Below, piece by piece: positions 9,030 through 27,361 of a DNA stretch of 36,361 nt; the stretch's first letter is position 1, and each line of letters starts with the position of its first letter. The notes under the pieces are model-generated. The model was not told where the DNA came from, ran no database searches, and saw only the letters and a list, made by a program, of their open reading frames with translations. A program made the translations under genes and the position numbers. This stretch comes from Maribacter sp. (GTDB lineage: Bacteria > Bacteroidota > Bacteroidia > Flavobacteriales > Flavobacteriaceae): contig JAAETN010000475.1 in assembly GCA_024228355.1 (NCBI GenBank), positions 1 to 36,361 on the forward strand, in the 5' to 3' direction.

Positions 9030-10577
9030 TTATTGATCCTCGTCAGGACCTTCTTGTTCCGTTGTTTCTGGAATCTCAAATAAATCAATATAGGCCTTAC
9101 CAATCGCATCGATTAATTTAGATGTGGTCAAGGCTTGGTAACCTGTATTCTCAATCGCCATATCCCCTGCCTTTCCATGCAGGTACACTCCAAATAAGAC
9201 TGCGTTTAATATATCGTAGCCTTGAGCTATCAATCCTGTTATTATTCCCGTTAGGGCATCACCACTTCCAGCGGTTGCCATTCCAGGATTGCCAGTTGAA
9301 TTGATATAACCTTTGTTATCATAAATGGTTATTGTGTGCGCACCTTTAATAACAAGTATAACATCGTATTTTTTTGAAAACGTCCTTGCCTTCTTCAATT
9401 TATCAAAATCATCCTTCCATTTACCAAGTAATCGCTCTAATTCTTTAGGATGCGGTGTCAGAACCGTTTTTGAAGGTAATTTTTTTAACAGGTCTTTGTT
9501 TTTGGCGAGTAAATTCAATCCATCCGCGTCAATAACCAAAGGTGATTTTACCTTTTCCAAAAATTTGGAAAATGCATTTAAGGTTTCCGTTTCAATGCCA
9601 AGACCAACGCCGATCCCAACTACCGAAGGCAGAATATCATACTCAATATTACTTATATGATTTTCATCACTATCGGTGATGACCATCGCTTCTGGTAAAA
9701 AAGTCTGAAGCGGTAAATAACCACATTTTGGTACATAGGCCGTGACTAAACCGCTACCGGTATTTAAACAAGCCTCTGCAGCGAGGGAAACAGCACCAAT
9801 CTTACCATAACTTCCGCCGATTATCAGGGAATGGCCATAGGTACCTTTATGGGAAAATTTCTCTCTAGGAATATATATGGGTAGCATTTCATTCTTGCCT
9901 ATGAGCTCAAATTCCGCTTCAGTATTCATAAAAAATTCAGGATCTAATCCAATATCCAATACCTCCCATTGATTGCTATAAACACCAGTCTCCGGTAAGA
10001 AAAATGTCAATTTTGGAGTTTGAAAGCTAAGCACATGATTTGCACGGACAACTGCATTTTTGTTTTCTACCGGTTTGTCCATGAATACTCCAGAGGGTAT
10101 ATCAACTGCTAGAATAAAAGCATCGGATTTATTCAAATATTGCATTAATTTGGCGACCCATTCATCAGGTGTTCGGTTCAGTCCGATACCGAATATTGCA
10201 TCAACAATAATATCATCGCGACCAATCTCAGGAAATTCAGCACCACACTCCATAAAATGTGGCCATATTTTGCGGTCTTTTAATCTGTCTAGATTGATTA
10301 AAAAATCCTTTGAACGCTTATCGCTATAATTGACAACATTCACTTCAATATTATAACCATGTTCCTTTAAATGCCTCGCCAATGCCATTCCGTCCCCACC
10401 ATTATTGCCGATACCACAGAACAAATGGATTTTCACTTGAGCACCTTGCATGCGTAAATGAAGCCAATTGAATATTTGTTTGGCAGCACGTTCCATGAGG
10501 TCATTACTCGAAATTTGCTGTTTTTCAATTGTGAATTTATCAGCAGCATATATCTGCTCAGCCGTAAAAAATTTCAT
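9030..10577 (-). CDS. nnr: Bifunctional NAD(P)HX epimerase / ADP- or ATP-dependent NAD(P)HX dehydratase
   Basis: Repairs hydrated NADH and NADPH. The N-terminal YjeF/NnrE domain (about 1-215) epimerises R- and S-NAD(P)HX; it shows GNNGGDGMALARHL near residue 60 and the conserved VDAIFG and VDIPSG segments. The C-terminal NnrD domain (about 225-500), of the ribokinase-like fold, shows HKGTYGHSLIIGGS, TPHPKE and GNPGMATAGSGDALTG, the latter being the ATP-binding and catalytic-base region. Full length at 515 residues, with a clean ATG start. The tail is acidic (TTEQEGPDEDQ). It diverges from the thr operon across 268 bp, where a palindromic -7 box could serve both directions. Confidence 0.95.
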   Translation of the reverse strand: MKFFTAEQIYAADKFTIEKQQISSNDLMERAAKQIFNWLHLRMQGAQVKIHLFCGIGNNGGDGMALARHLKEHGYNIEVNVVNYSDKRSKDFLINLDRLKDRKIWPHFMECGAEFPEIGRDDIIVDAIFGIGLNRTPDEWVAKLMQYLNKSDAFILAVDIPSGVFMDKPVENKNAVVRANHVLSFQTPKLTFFLPETGVYSNQWEVLDIGLDPEFFMNTEAEFELIGKNEMLPIYIPREKFSHKGTYGHSLIIGGSYGKIGAVSLAAEACLNTGSGLVTAYVPKCGYLPLQTFLPEAMVITDSDENHISNIEYDILPSVVGIGVGLGIETETLNAFSKFLEKVKSPLVIDADGLNLLAKNKDLLKKLPSKTVLTPHPKELERLLGKWKDDFDKLKKARTFSKKYDVILVIKGAHTITIYDNKGYINSTGNPGMATAGSGDALTGIITGLIAQGYDILNAVLFGVYLHGKAGDMAIENTGYQALTTSKLIDAIGKAYIDLFEIPETTEQEGPDEDQ

Positions 10578-10630: not shown

Positions 10631-10661
10631 TTTGATTAGCAAGCCAAAAGTACTACTTTTG
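10631..10661 (+). promoter_or_regulatory. Promoter of the threonine operon
   Basis: TTTG (10631-10634), a 19-bp spacer and TACTTTTG (10654-10661): an exact match to the Bacteroidota sigma-A consensus TTTG/TAnnTTTG. With the roughly 5-nt offset seen at rnpB, RNA would start near 10666, only about 12 nt before the leader ORF at 10678 and about 180 nt before thrA. Confidence 0.75.
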
Positions 10662-10662
10662 G
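10644..10662. promoter_or_regulatory. Perfect 19-bp palindrome overlapping divergent -7 boxes
   Basis: CCAAAAGTA-C-TACTTTTGG: two 9-bp arms around a single central C. Because of the symmetry, TACTTTTG is present on both strands, giving a -7 box toward thrA (with TTTG at N19) and one toward nnr (with CGAA, read as TTCG, at N19). It could also be an operator; symmetry is seen, function is inferred. Confidence 0.6.
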
Positions 10663-10677
10663 TCCTTACAACGAAGT

Positions 10678-10770
10678 ATGCTTTTCAACAATTTGGACAT
10701 AGCAACCTTATTTTCTCCATTAACCAATGGACGCAATACTACGATTACCCATACAACCCCTTTGGGGTAA
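10678..10770 (+). CDS. Threonine-rich leader peptide of the thr operon (candidate attenuator)
   Basis: A 30-codon ORF, too short for the ORF track, between the thr promoter and thrA. It encodes MLFNNLDIATLFSPLTNG followed by RNTTITHTTPLG and a TAA stop. Seven of 30 codons are Thr, five of them within seven codons (ACT ACG ATT ACC CAT ACA ACC) together with one Ile, the two end products whose supply a threonine operon would sense. The ATG lies about 12 nt after the predicted RNA start. The stop codon sits in a small hairpin ACCCC-TTT-GGGGT (10756-10768). This is the layout of ribosome-mediated attenuation as in enteric thrL, but no sequence similarity to thrL is claimed. No classical hairpin plus U-run terminator was found before thrA. 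Confidence 0.6.
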   Translation: MLFNNLDIATLFSPLTNGRNTTITHTTPLG

Positions 10771-10841
10771 CAAATTACATATAATCCTTCCGTATTTGCG
10801 ATTTTTCGCACCCAAATATTCAGTACTAGATAATCAATTTG
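10745..10841 (+). promoter_or_regulatory. Competing base-pairing segments in the thr leader RNA
   Basis: Mutually exclusive pairings can be drawn: TTACCC (10745-10750) with GGGTAA (10765-10770); ACCCC with GGGGT (10756-10768); TTTGGG (10761-10766) with CCCAAA (10811-10816). A further helix CAAATT (10771-10776) with AATTTG (10836-10841) would close just upstream of the thrA ATG, and TGCGA/TCGCA (10797-10810) forms a small hairpin between. The helices are short, so a real switch is unproven. Confidence 0.35.
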
Positions 10842-10845
10842 TAAA

Positions 10846-13290
10846 ATGAAAGTTTTAAAATTCGGAGGCACATCGGTCTCCAATGCCCAAAATATAACCT
10901 TAGTAAAAGATATTGTTTCCAAGATCGAAAGCGACAAGGCCGTAGTTGTGGTTTCTGCTATGGGTGGAGTTACCGATTTATTATTGAATACAGCAAGCTT
11001 GGCAGCCCTACAGGATGATACCTATAAGCCATTTCTCAAAGAAATTGAGGATAGACATCTAAAAACCATCAAAGAACTTATTTCAATCAAAATCCAAAGT
11101 AGGGTTCTAAGTAAGGTTAAAAGTGAGCTCAATACTTTGGAAACCCTTTTGGAAGGTGCATTCCTGATAGGTGAAATCACACCCAAACTTTCAGACAAAA
11201 TAGTGAGTTATGGCGAACTCTTATCATCATACATAATTGGGGAGTTCTTTGCTGAGGCAGGTCTTGACGTTGCTCACATAGACAGTCGAGAACTCATTAA
11301 AACCGATGATTTTAATGGGAAGGCAGCGGTGAACTTTGAGTTGACCAACCAGCTATGTGCAGAGTATGTCGCAAAAACTCCTCATAGGATTATTGTTCTT
11401 GCCGGCTTTATAGCATCGACTGTAAATGGGGATTCAACAACTTTAGGACGTGGCGGTTCTGATTATACTGCGGCCATAGTTGCAGCGGCCATAAATGCTG
11501 ATTTACTGGAAATTTGGACCGATGTCAGCGGAATGTACACTGCAAATCCCAAATTGGTAAAACAGGCAAAGGCAATTCAACACATTTCATATGAGGAGGC
11601 GATGGAACTTTCCCATTTTGGGGCTAAAGTATTATATCCCCCAACCATTCAACCCGTACTTGCCAAAGGAATTTCAATCCAAATAAAAAATACTTTTGAA
11701 CCTGATAATCCTGGGACTATAATCACTAAAAATAAAAACGAGAAAGGAAAAACTGTTAGGGGGATTACCCATGTGTCGAACATAGCCCTACTCTCATTGG
11801 AAGGCCCAGGTATGGTAGGTATTCCTGGAATATCCAAACGTTTCTTCGAGGTGCTTTCACAAGCCAATATCAGTGTAGTGCTCATTACTCAGGCTTCTTC
11901 TGAACATTCTATTTGTGTGGGTATTTCTGCCAACGACATCACTGAGGCCGAACAAACCGTTAACACCACATTTGCTTATGAAATCAGCAGAGGAAAAATT
12001 AATCCGGTTTTGGTTGAGACCGGGTTGGCGATTATTGCATTGGTCGGGGATAATATGAAAAGCCATCAGGGCCTTAGCGGTAAAATGTTCAGCACTTTAG
12101 GAAGGAACAACGTGAATATTAGGGCCATAGCCCAAGGAGCCTCAGAGCGTAATATTTCGGCGGTCATCAACAAGGAAGATGTAAAGAAAGCCTTGAATTC
12201 GCTTCATGAGGAGTTTTTTGAGGAGAATATAAAACAATTGAATCTCTTTGTCATGGGAGTTGGTAATGTCGGAGGCAAATTCCTGAATCAAATAAAACAA
12301 CAGCAAAAATTCTTAAAGGAAAATTTAAAACTCAATCCTCGGGTTATCGGGATATCCAATTCAAGGACCATGATATTCGATGAAGACGGAATTTCCTTAA
12401 AAAACTGGGAAACTCGCTTATCGGAAGGAGAGCAGGCTAACAAGTCCAAATTCCTTGAAACCGTAAACGCACTAAATTATCGCAATAGCATTTTTGTTGA
12501 CAATACGGCAAGTGAGGAAGTTTCCAATACATACCATTCGTATTTGGGAAATAGTATTTCTGTAGTAACATGCAATAAAATTGCCTGTTCATCAAATTAT
12601 TCAAATTACTTGGAACTAAAGGAGTTAGCAAGGGAATACAATGCACCATTCTTGTTTGAAACCAATGTTGGAGCAGGTTTGCCTATAATTGACACTTTAA
12701 AACATTTGATAGCCTCTGGTGATAAAGTTCAAAAAATACAGGCTGTACTTTCAGGAAGTCTTAATTTTGTCTTTAACAACTTCAATGATAAAACAACGTT
12801 TCACGACGTTGTTAAACAAGCACAGGAAGAAGGGTATACAGAGCCCGACCCAAAAATAGATCTAAGCGGTATTGACGTCATGCGGAAGATTTTGATCCTT
12901 GCCAGGGAAAGTGGGAATCAATTGGAAATCGATGATATCGAGAATAAAGCGTTCTTACCCCAAGAGAGTTTGGACACTACCAACAACAAGGATTTCTTTG
13001 CTTCACTGAAAAAAAATGAAGCATCATTCCAGGAAATGTATAAAAATGCAGTCGCCTCTGATAGCAAATTAAAGTATGTAGCCCAATTTGAAAACGGGAA
13101 GGCCAGTGTTGGTTTACAACAGATTCCTAAAGGGCATGATTTTTATAATCTTGAAGGCAGTGATAATATTGTATTGTTCTTCACTGAACGTTATCCCAAT
13201 CAACCAATGATTATTAAAGGTGCGGGGGCAGGTGCAGATGTTACGGCCTCTGGAATTTTTGCTGACATAATCAGAATAGGTAACTTTTAA
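10846..13290 (+). CDS. thrA: Bifunctional aspartokinase / homoserine dehydrogenase
   Basis: Catalyses the first and third steps from aspartate toward threonine: phosphorylation of aspartate and reduction of aspartate semialdehyde to homoserine. The N-terminal kinase begins MKVLKFGGTSVSNA and has the TTLGRGGSDYTAA motif near residue 200; ACT regulatory repeats follow (about 310-460, VLITQASSEHSICV and NVRAIAQG-like NIRAIAQGASERNISAV). The homoserine dehydrogenase part starts at LFVMGVGNVGGKFL near 467, with the catalytic region ETNVGAGLPI and QEEGYTEPDPKIDLSGIDV further on. Full length at 814. It lies 75 nt after the leader ORF stop and six nt before thrB. Confidence 0.97.
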   Translation: MKVLKFGGTSVSNAQNITLVKDIVSKIESDKAVVVVSAMGGVTDLLLNTASLAALQDDTYKPFLKEIEDRHLKTIKELISIKIQSRVLSKVKSELNTLETLLEGAFLIGEITPKLSDKIVSYGELLSSYIIGEFFAEAGLDVAHIDSRELIKTDDFNGKAAVNFELTNQLCAEYVAKTPHRIIVLAGFIASTVNGDSTTLGRGGSDYTAAIVAAAINADLLEIWTDVSGMYTANPKLVKQAKAIQHISYEEAMELSHFGAKVLYPPTIQPVLAKGISIQIKNTFEPDNPGTIITKNKNEKGKTVRGITHVSNIALLSLEGPGMVGIPGISKRFFEVLSQANISVVLITQASSEHSICVGISANDITEAEQTVNTTFAYEISRGKINPVLVETGLAIIALVGDNMKSHQGLSGKMFSTLGRNNVNIRAIAQGASERNISAVINKEDVKKALNSLHEEFFEENIKQLNLFVMGVGNVGGKFLNQIKQQQKFLKENLKLNPRVIGISNSRTMIFDEDGISLKNWETRLSEGEQANKSKFLETVNALNYRNSIFVDNTASEEVSNTYHSYLGNSISVVTCNKIACSSNYSNYLELKELAREYNAPFLFETNVGAGLPIIDTLKHLIASGDKVQKIQAVLSGSLNFVFNNFNDKTTFHDVVKQAQEEGYTEPDPKIDLSGIDVMRKILILARESGNQLEIDDIENKAFLPQESLDTTNNKDFFASLKKNEASFQEMYKNAVASDSKLKYVAQFENGKASVGLQQIPKGHDFYNLEGSDNIVLFFTERYPNQPMIIKGAGAGADVTASGIFADIIRIGNF

Positions 13291-13296
13291 TTAAAG

Positions 13297-14220
13297 ATGG
13301 AAGAAATAAAAATTTTCTGCCCTGCCACCATTGCCAATATCTCATGTGGATTTGATGTACTCGGCGTTGCTTTGGATTCCGTGGGAGATGAAATGGTAAT
13401 TCGGAAGGTACCGAGGAAAGGTATCTATATCACCAAATTAGTTGGCCAGGATTTGCCCTTGGAAACAGAAAGGAATGTTGCTGGAGTTGCTGCTTTGGCC
13501 CTCATGGCAGAAAGCGATTATGAAGGTGGTTTTGAAATTGAGATTTACAAAAAAATAAAGGCCGGCAGTGGAATTGGTAGTAGTGCTGCAAGTTCTGCAG
13601 GAGCAGTTTGGGGAATAAACCAATTACTGATGAAACCTTTCCCAACTTCTAAATTGGTGGAATTTGCCATGGAAGGAGAACGGTTGGCCAGTGGGGTCGC
13701 ACATGCAGATAACGTGGCACCTGCCCTTTTTGGTGGATTTACTTTGGTACGCAGTTATGAACCATTGGATATTATTCCGATCAACAGCCCGTCGAAACTA
13801 TATGCTACGGTAATTCATCCGCAAATAGAGGTAAAAACCTCTGATTCCAGAAAAATCCTAAAAACCAATATTACCTTAAAGGATGGCATAAAACAATGGG
13901 GGAATGTAGGTGGTTTGGTTGCTGGCTTGTTCACCGAAGATTATGATTTAATTGGTCGTTCTTTGATTGACCATATTGTAGAACCCATTCGCTCTATCCT
14001 AATCCCGGGTTTTGATGATGTAAAATCAAAATCTCTGGAAGCTGGGGCATTGGGATGCGGAATTTCAGGTTCGGGTCCATCAATTTTTGCTTTTAGCAAA
14101 GGCGAGGATATTGCCCAGAAAGTAGCGTTAGCTATGTCCAATATCTATAAAAATATTGAGATTGATTATGATGTACATGTATCCAAATTCAATACAAAAG
14201 GTATTAAAATATTGAAGTAA
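13297..14220 (+). CDS. thrB: Homoserine kinase
   Basis: Phosphorylates homoserine to O-phosphohomoserine, the substrate of threonine synthase. GHMP-kinase family: N-terminal FCPATIANISCGFDVLG, the ATP-binding GSGIGSSAASSAG near residue 88-100, and the C-terminal GCGISGSGPSIFAF. Length 307 is usual. The ATG is six nt after the thrA stop and the gene ends three nt before thrC, so the three are one operon. Confidence 0.97.
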   Translation: MEEIKIFCPATIANISCGFDVLGVALDSVGDEMVIRKVPRKGIYITKLVGQDLPLETERNVAGVAALALMAESDYEGGFEIEIYKKIKAGSGIGSSAASSAGAVWGINQLLMKPFPTSKLVEFAMEGERLASGVAHADNVAPALFGGFTLVRSYEPLDIIPINSPSKLYATVIHPQIEVKTSDSRKILKTNITLKDGIKQWGNVGGLVAGLFTEDYDLIGRSLIDHIVEPIRSILIPGFDDVKSKSLEAGALGCGISGSGPSIFAFSKGEDIAQKVALAMSNIYKNIEIDYDVHVSKFNTKGIKILK

Positions 14221-14223
14221 CAA

Positions 14224-15522
14224 ATGAATTTTTATAGCTTAAATAAAAAAGCAGCAAACGTAACTTTTAGGGATGCTGTAATAAAAGGAATTGCTCCCGA
14301 CAAAGGGCTTTATTTCCCTGAGAATATTACGCCTTTACCTAATTCTTTTTTTGAGGACATTGAGACGCTCTCAAATACTGAAATCGCATTTGAAGCCATT
14401 CGTCAATTCGTAAATGATGAAATTCCTGATGATAAATTAAAGGAAATTCTCAAAGAAGTTCTGGATTTTGATTTTCCCATTGTTGCGCTTGAAGATAATG
14501 TCGCCACTTTGGAGCTTTTTCATGGTCCTACAATGGCATTCAAGGATGTAGGAGCTCGATTTATGGCACAATGTCTTGGATATTTTTCTAGTAGCACAGA
14601 TGATGAAGTTACAGTATTGGTAGCGACTTCAGGGGATACGGGTGGTGCCGTGGCAAATGGTTTTCTTGGGGTTGACGGCGTAAAAGTGGTCATCCTTTAT
14701 CCTAGTGGTAAGGTCAGTGATATTCAGGAAAGGCAACTTACAACGCTTGGAATGAACATTACCGCTTTGGAGGTTGATGGTACTTTTGATGATTGCCAGA
14801 AAATGGTAAAAACAGCTTTTTTAGATGCGGATTTGCTTGAGAATATGCAGCTTACATCTGCAAATTCAATCAATGTGGCACGTTGGTTACCACAAATGTT
14901 TTATTTCCTATTTGCTTACAAACAGCTAAAATCAATGGGGAAAGAATTGGTCTTTTCTGTCCCTAGTGGCAATTTTGGGAATATCTGTGCTGGCATGGTC
15001 GCACAAAAATTGGGAATGCCTGTGAAACACTTTGTGGCATCAACCAATGTCAATGACACTGTTCCACAATTTATGCAGACTGGAGAATACAAACCTAAAC
15101 CATCCACAGCAACTATTTCAAATGCTATGGACGTAGGTGACCCAAGTAACTTTATACGCATTCGACATCTTTTTAAAAACAATTTTGACGCTTTAAATGA
15201 AAATCTAAGTTCCTTTTCCTTTACTGATGAAGAGACGAGAGAAGCCATACAGCATATTTATGGAATGGCAGGCTATATAGCGGACCCCCATGGAGCTGTT
15301 GGCTATTTGGGATTAAAGGAATACCAAAAAAACCAAACAATTCCGTTTGGTGTATTCTTGGAAACTGCACATCCGGTTAAATTTTTGGATGTCGTCGAGG
15401 AAACCATTGCTACAACTTTAAAAATTCCACCACAGATACGACGGGTAATGGGCAGGAAGAAGAAATCTATTAGAATAGCTGAATACAAAGAGCTTAAAGC
15501 GCACTTATTGAATAATCACTAA
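14224..15522 (+). CDS. thrC: Threonine synthase
   Basis: PLP-dependent conversion of O-phosphohomoserine to threonine. The PLP-binding lysine is in HGPTMAFKDVGARF near residue 107, the phosphate-binding loop in ATSGDTGGAVANGF near 140, and SVPSGNFGN near 245. Length 432 matches the longer, bacterial type with the N-terminal domain starting at MNFYSLNKKAANVTFRDAV. Third gene of the operon; I see no strong terminator in the 103 bp before gcvT. Confidence 0.96.
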   Translation: MNFYSLNKKAANVTFRDAVIKGIAPDKGLYFPENITPLPNSFFEDIETLSNTEIAFEAIRQFVNDEIPDDKLKEILKEVLDFDFPIVALEDNVATLELFHGPTMAFKDVGARFMAQCLGYFSSSTDDEVTVLVATSGDTGGAVANGFLGVDGVKVVILYPSGKVSDIQERQLTTLGMNITALEVDGTFDDCQKMVKTAFLDADLLENMQLTSANSINVARWLPQMFYFLFAYKQLKSMGKELVFSVPSGNFGNICAGMVAQKLGMPVKHFVASTNVNDTVPQFMQTGEYKPKPSTATISNAMDVGDPSNFIRIRHLFKNNFDALNENLSSFSFTDEETREAIQHIYGMAGYIADPHGAVGYLGLKEYQKNQTIPFGVFLETAHPVKFLDVVEETIATTLKIPPQIRRVMGRKKKSIRIAEYKELKAHLLNNH

Positions 15523-27042: not shown

Positions 27043-27049
27043 AAAAAAA
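27043..27049 (-). terminator. U-run ending RNase P RNA
   Basis: Seven A on the plus strand give a U7 run directly after the 3' strand of the P1 helix of the RNA, so P1 plus the U-run acts as an intrinsic terminator. Confidence 0.65.
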
Positions 27050-27357
27050 GCAGGCCATAAGCCGGATTCTGTAAGGTCATAAAGACCCCCTTATCATTTA
27101 TCTGGACCTTTGGTTGCCCAAAGGCTCTAACCGCCTACCCTTCAGCTCGAGCGTGCGACCCTCAATCACTGATTTACATGACGTTTCACCATATAGAGTT
27201 TACCTGATTTCACTACAGCATTACCTGTACATACTTTCTGTTGCACTTGTCCGTCCCCACCGATGGTGGGGAGACGGGTGTTACCCGCTATAATGCACTG
27301 TGGTGTCCGGACTTTCCTACCTGACGTTAACCGTCAGCTCGATAAGGTGGCCTGCTT
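27048..27357 (-). ncRNA. rnpB: RNase P RNA (bacterial type A)
   Basis: RNA subunit of the enzyme that matures the 5' ends of tRNAs. On the minus strand the P1 arms are AAGCAGGCCA at the 5' end and TGGCCTGCTT at the 3' end. The conserved core follows in the right order: GGAAAGTCCGGAC (27305-27317), AGATAAATGATAA (27091-27103) and ACAGAATCCGGCTTA (27058-27072). A hairpin CCCCACC-atc-GGTGGGG and other helices fit the type A layout. The length is about 310 nt. It occupies most of the 544-bp gap between rsmD and dnaX, with its own -7 box on the dnaX side. Confidence 0.96.
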
Positions 27358-27361
27358 GCGG

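Follow-up and report, generated by a model that had tools for sequence, protein, structure and literature searches.

The textbook case of leader-peptide control over threonine biosynthesis is enterobacterial thrL, which governs the thrABC genes. Other regulatory upstream ORFs, such as tnaC and mgtL, are linked to Rho. Leader regulation has been little studied in Bacteroidota; attenuators are reportedly among the predictions that a comparative study of 2004 made for the Bacteroidetes/Chlorobi group. Transcriptome work on structured 5' regions of Flavobacterium psychrophilum yielded strong indications that amino-acid operons are attenuated by leader peptides encoded ahead of them, and it singles out the hisG and pheA elements as conserved in the family (PMC9723704); the main text of that report mentions neither thrA nor a design with a hairpin at the leader stop codon, in which the Maribacter thr leader described below differs from it. 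As outlined in a report on the toiL-topAI system of Escherichia coli, an antibiotic-sensing upstream ORF there acts through occlusion of the ribosome-binding site and then through Rho (PMC12121999). On that account, toiL-topAI shares with the thr leader mechanism that we propose the stalling in a short upstream ORF and the lack of an intrinsic terminator, but the signal is an antibiotic in toiL and would be Thr/Ile in the thr leader, for which we infer the involvement of Rho (PMC12121999). Our literature searches turned up neither this thr leader nor its stop-codon hairpin design.

The locus lies on a stretch of 36,361 nucleotides (contig JAAETN010000475.1, referred to as the window) from a Maribacter-like member of the Flavobacteriaceae. 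All features of the thr locus are on the plus strand. The gene under putative control, thrA (10846-13290), is an ORF of 814 amino acids for a bifunctional aspartokinase/homoserine dehydrogenase, orthologs of which are present in 58 of 60 relatives. It is closely followed by thrB (13297-14220) and, in turn, by thrC (14224-15522), both assigned by sequence and gene order, and judging from this arrangement the three genes are probably co-transcribed. A promoter of the exact Bacteroidota type, which a previous sequence-only reading of this DNA had placed before thrA, was found at 10631-10661, with TTTG at 10631-10634, a spacer of 19 nt, and TACTTTTG at 10654-10661. The ATG of a short ORF follows 16 nt past the promoter element and about 12 nt past the likely start point of transcription. 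This ORF (10678-10770; 30 codons plus TAA, MLFNNLDIATLFSPLTNGRNTTITHTTPLG) occupies the interval between promoter and thrA, and 75 nt separate its stop from the thrA start at 10846. Its codons 21-27 (10738-10758; ACT ACG ATT ACC CAT ACA ACC) specify Thr-Thr-Ile-Thr-His-Thr-Thr; i.e., five Thr, one Ile, and one His. Both the position and the codon content agree with the sequence-only reading, which had singled out a Thr-rich ORF of this length at this distance from thrA. When 10640-10845 was shuffled 20,000 times with its dinucleotide content preserved, only 3 shuffles produced an ORF of comparable Thr/Ile richness (defined as 12-60 codons from an ATG, among them a run of seven codons that holds five or more Thr and six or more Thr plus Ile).

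We gathered thrA orthologs from relatives and from named genomes and compared their upstream regions, which amounted to 204 distinct regions from Flavobacteriaceae. A loose search recovered a CCC..GGGG hairpin in 190 of them; a stricter test, which additionally demanded Thr/Ile codons ahead of this hairpin, left 178 regions with both an in-frame Thr/Ile-rich leader ORF and the hairpin. A comparison across many Flavobacteriaceae upstream regions, which had been suggested as a check on the Thr-rich ORF, bears it out. The roughly 180 leader-bearing relatives include marine and soil bacteria, their leaders have a median length of 30 codons, and a TAnnTTTG element precedes the leader in 174 of the 178. 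Thr accounts for 34% and Ile for 16% of the last 12 codons, compared to 13% Thr in the first 12; this corresponds to 4.1 Thr per 12 codons at the end and 1.5 at the beginning. The leader frame was chosen partly by its Thr/Ile content, and contrasts between in-frame and out-of-frame codons are consequently partly circular and biased upwards; the positions of leader start, leader stop, and promoter provide independent support for the chosen frame, which in the 178 relatives starts near the promoter and stops at the hairpin. Across these sequences the Thr codons are maintained by differing synonymous codons. Taken as a whole, the comparison strongly supports the designation of 10678-10770 as a leader peptide ORF. 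Seven relatives (L022, L023, L029, L156, L158, L191, and L192) have no recognizable Thr leader or stop-codon hairpin upstream of thrA, and in L023 and L029 a different ORF ends immediately before the gene; such cases possibly represent losses of control.

S2 (10756-10768; ACCCC-TTT-GGGGT, ACCCCTTTGGGGT), the hairpin that straddles the end of the leader ORF, had gone unmentioned in the sequence-only reading and is nearly invariant among the relatives. The final Thr codon falls within its 5' arm, and the 3' arm takes in the opening base of the stop codon; in most of the 178 relatives, the stop codon begins between 1 base before and 3 bases after the end of S2. The hairpin persists in relatives that translate it in differing frames (TPLG, TLWGC, TPFGV, TPWG), which indicates selection on the RNA hairpin rather than on the peptide. 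When 103 leaders were folded in silico, the pairing probability of S2 was 0.86 in free RNA and 0.03 when a ribosome mask was placed on the Thr codons, and S2 was the single local hairpin that responded to the mask. With its 5' arm blocked, the 3' arm of S2 paired with the downstream box at a probability of about 0.3 and had no single conserved partner. The locus thus has a conserved short ORF rich in codons for the product of the pathway, set between promoter and biosynthetic gene, and the regulatory codons are so placed that in the folding model a stalled ribosome would block a defined RNA structure; both traits are expected of an attenuator. The modeled response lends moderate support to S2 as the switch.

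Further conserved RNA elements flank S2. Just 5' of the Thr codons lies hairpin S1 (10716-10731; TCCATT-aacc-AATGGA), whose position is occupied by a hairpin in 140 of the 178 relatives and in 84 of 178 shuffled controls. Downstream of S2, a conserved box (10777-10792; ACATATAATCCTTCCG) follows the pattern A[CT]ATAT...TCCG; 117 of 178 relatives have A[CT]ATA at most 24 nt away from S2, against a background of 11% per window, and TCCG or GTCC is found in the box region of 115. The box is followed by hairpin S3 (10797-10810; TGCG-attttt-CGCA, TGCGATTTTTCGCA), which has the strongest covariation at the locus: its sequence varies widely and its pairing is kept, so that the complementarity of own versus swapped arms reached z values of 8 to 12 (about 8 for S1) in tests that used a simple helix score and modeled phylogeny only in part. 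The distance between S2 and S3 is 28 nt (interquartile range 26-30). S3 usually lies 34-40 nt before the thrA ATG, yet in six relatives this gap amounts to 114-227 nt and leader, S2, and S3 persist. The spacer between leader and thrA (10771-10845) is C-rich and G-poor, with a C minus G value of +8 in the window and a mean of +7.6 in the 178 relatives, compared to -1.2 (standard deviation 5.3) in 122 control upstream regions of 75 nt. Such a composition would suit a site of Rho loading, for which the spacer is a candidate, although an excess of C over G is not by itself proof that Rho acts here.

A covariance model built from S2, the box, and S3 matched 65 of 151 genomes of the family, nearly always once per genome, and had almost no matches outside the family. 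Wherever coordinates of thrA were listed, the matches were positioned just upstream of this gene, with the exception of one marginal extra match in G073, and a sequence-pattern search within the genus gave the same thrA-specific outcome. These searches support the view that the hairpin element is specific to thrA. A second S2-like genomic site (L340) resembled coding sequence upon inspection and was devoid of leader context. By eye, S2-type leaders can be discerned before thrA in other Bacteroidia as well (L295, L299, L303, L315, L324, and L326). Elsewhere in the Bacteroidia (L304, L306, L307, and L308), thr leaders close with a different stop-codon hairpin (e.g., ACGGGgtaaCCCGT), whose loop holds the stop codon and which is not accompanied by a strong terminator.

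Comparison with classical attenuators brings out what is peculiar to this leader. As in enterobacterial thrL (RF00506), a Thr/Ile-rich peptide is encoded between promoter and thrA, and stalling at Thr/Ile codons is presumed; unlike thrL, the Maribacter leader has no U-run terminator, and the principal hairpin extends across the stop codon of the peptide. The absence of a U-run hairpin between leader and thrA, already remarked upon in the sequence-only reading, holds for the window, where no GC-rich hairpin with a U-tract as in thrL-type leaders was found before thrA. Among 128 relatives, a T-run directly after S3 was present in 13% compared to a background of 8%, no clear enrichment, although a few relatives (L231, L211, and L204) do carry one. 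The Rfam covariance model Thr_leader did not match even at an E value of 10. The leader thus behaves like an attenuator and yet lacks the terminator by which the classical family is defined. As for a mutually exclusive antiterminator like that of thrL, scans of the leaders brought up two candidate helices, neither of which stayed significant enough once related sequences had been thinned out. Helix P0, formed by the leader start and the box (TATGTAATTA/TAATTACATA in L227), scored z values near 6 in scans but 2.3 when the set was reduced to 75 dissimilar sequences; we regard it as a lead only. Helix T, which joins the Thr codons to the 5' arm of S3, scored 3.0 on the same thinned set; it is absent in the clade of the window and kinetically awkward.

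Leaders for other amino acids in these bacteria do conform to the classical scheme. In the genome of the window itself, the his leader (L257; MRNQNTHHHFYTCSQAR) finishes with the terminator GACCCGTTTGAGaaatCAAACGGGTTTTTT, and its segment CTCAAGCG is complementary to the terminator arm CGTTTGAG; an ilv leader from the same genus (L268) likewise has a classical terminator. Both resemble the thr leader in being short, rich in the amino acids of the pathway, and situated near the promoter and before the first biosynthetic gene, but they end in GC-rich hairpins followed by 6-7 U and contain segments complementary to the terminator arm, neither of which the thr leader possesses. The two leaders indicate that ribosome-mediated attenuation is in use in these bacteria, and set against these canonical U-run attenuators, the absence of a terminator at thrA argues for an unusual mechanism, a suspicion that the sequence-only reading had voiced. 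Thr/Ile-rich leaders also precede thrA in other Bacteroidia (L310-L313 and L317), where, unlike in Maribacter, they carry classical terminators (e.g., GTCCCGAT..ATCGGGACGCTTTTTTTT); two designs therefore serve the same gene within one class. Classical his attenuators with an HHH leader were seen in L257, L252, L253, and L241-L264, and many his leaders have between leader stop and terminator an ACATAT-like box resembling that of the thr leader. L268 and L270 are ilv leaders with peptides rich in Ile, Val, and Leu and with classical terminators; the former additionally has a hairpin, CCCA..TGGG, where its leader stops.

We consider it probable, with some reservation, that thrABC is subject to Thr (and Ile) sensing by a ribosome-mediated attenuator in which S2 is the switch and for which termination of a non-intrinsic kind is favored. 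Transcription would start near 10666-10668, and a ribosome would translate the 30-codon leader. When charged tRNA-Thr is scarce, the ribosome would stall at the Thr/Ile codons directly before S2, its leading edge would cover the 5' arm, and S2 could not form; by keeping S2 open, stalling would raise thrABC expression. When Thr is plentiful, the ribosome would reach the stop codon and depart, S2 would fold, and with the leader RNA free of ribosomes, transcription could end early in the spacer by a Rho-type route. The parts of this proposal differ in strength. By sequence comparison, we regard as established the ORF, the bias of its codons, the conservation of S2 and S3 at the RNA level, and the restriction to thrA. 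That translation of a leader gauges the supply of Thr (and Ile) on behalf of thrA had been proposed in the sequence-only reading; since Flavobacteriaceae conserve the ORF together with its codons and with three segments of RNA, a Thr/Ile sensor is well supported at the sequence level; the thr leader is almost certainly a sensor of threonine. That S2 acts on transcript elongation, most likely via Rho-type termination in the spacer, is weakly suggested by the composition of the latter; output at the level of transcription would also fit the constant S2-S3 distance, given that the distance from S3 to thrA varies.

The position of the leader ribosome might instead hide or free the thrA start through RNA structure, with no termination involved. 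The sequence-only reading had pointed to a helix over this start, and the minimum-energy fold of the window does contain one (10770-10776 paired to 10836-10842, immediately ahead of the ATG); the rather fixed distance from S3 to the ATG would also suit such translational control. The fold of the leader region is not exceptional, however (z of -1.6), and the start helix is not conserved; S3 is the only covarying helix in the 45 nt before thrA. Nor did modeled stalling alter access to the thrA start, which was 0.517 in free and 0.513 in stalled RNA of 103 relatives, and the folding model accordingly gave no sign of an ermC-type translational attenuator. The fixed spacing of S2 and S3, combined with the long gap between S3 and thrA in the six relatives mentioned above, likewise argues against occlusion of the start, and we judge this explanation unlikely.

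A classical intrinsic attenuator would be retained if simple scans had missed a long-range or AT-rich terminator, formed either by S3 or by the Thr codons together with the 5' arm of S3 and followed by the U-rich S3 loop (58% U). S3 does occupy the position that the terminator has in his and ilv leaders, and the T-runs in three relatives and the genuine U-run terminators in Thr leaders of other Bacteroidia lend this idea some substance. It is countered by the near-background frequency of T-runs after S3 and by S3 itself, which is weak and insensitive to ribosome position (pairing probability of 0.78 in free and 0.77 in masked RNA, predicted in every modeled state); the helix between Thr codons and S3 arm finds no support in the clade of the window, and if termination took place in the S3 loop, it would precede the synthesis of the 3' arm, so that the covariation of S3 would have no explanation. 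We deem such a terminator quite improbable. Even less credit is due to hairpins that act on thrA independently of translation, by affecting RNA stability or by binding a protein, with the Thr-rich ORF incidental. The formation of S3 in all modeled states would fit, as would the conserved sequence of the mostly unpaired box between S2 and S3, which might be a protein site; but the Thr codons are preserved in 178 sequences through synonymous codons, in a frame that starts near the promoter and stops at S2, and amino-acid-rich leaders precede his and ilv genes too, so that we hold this explanation to be very improbable.

If the ribosome-mediated attenuator with S2 as its switch is borne out, the leader control known from enteric thrABC has a counterpart in Bacteroidota with a different output device. 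Classical and terminator-less leaders would stand side by side in one genus, and members of the Bacteroidia would differ in whether thrA has a classical terminator or a hairpin at the leader stop. How a ribosome controls elongation without an intrinsic terminator could then be addressed by clean comparisons. More tentatively, terminator-less amino-acid attenuators could be widespread in Flavobacteriales and perhaps in other Bacteroidia, with a stop-codon hairpin as the ribosome-controlled switch that acts by pausing or through Rho, and with his and ilv leaders remaining classical.

Two minor observations concern other parts of the window. An RNase P RNA of bacterial class A (RF00010; 184 bits) is encoded on the minus strand at 27043-27358 and appears ordinary. 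The -7 element of the thrA promoter lies inside a perfect inverted repeat, CCAAAAGTA-C-TACTTTTGG (10644-10662), which creates a second TACTTTTG on the minus strand; this copy faces a divergent gene (9030-10577) that probably encodes an NAD(P)HX epimerase/dehydratase, so that the promoters of both genes may overlap and have an element at 10644-10662 in common.
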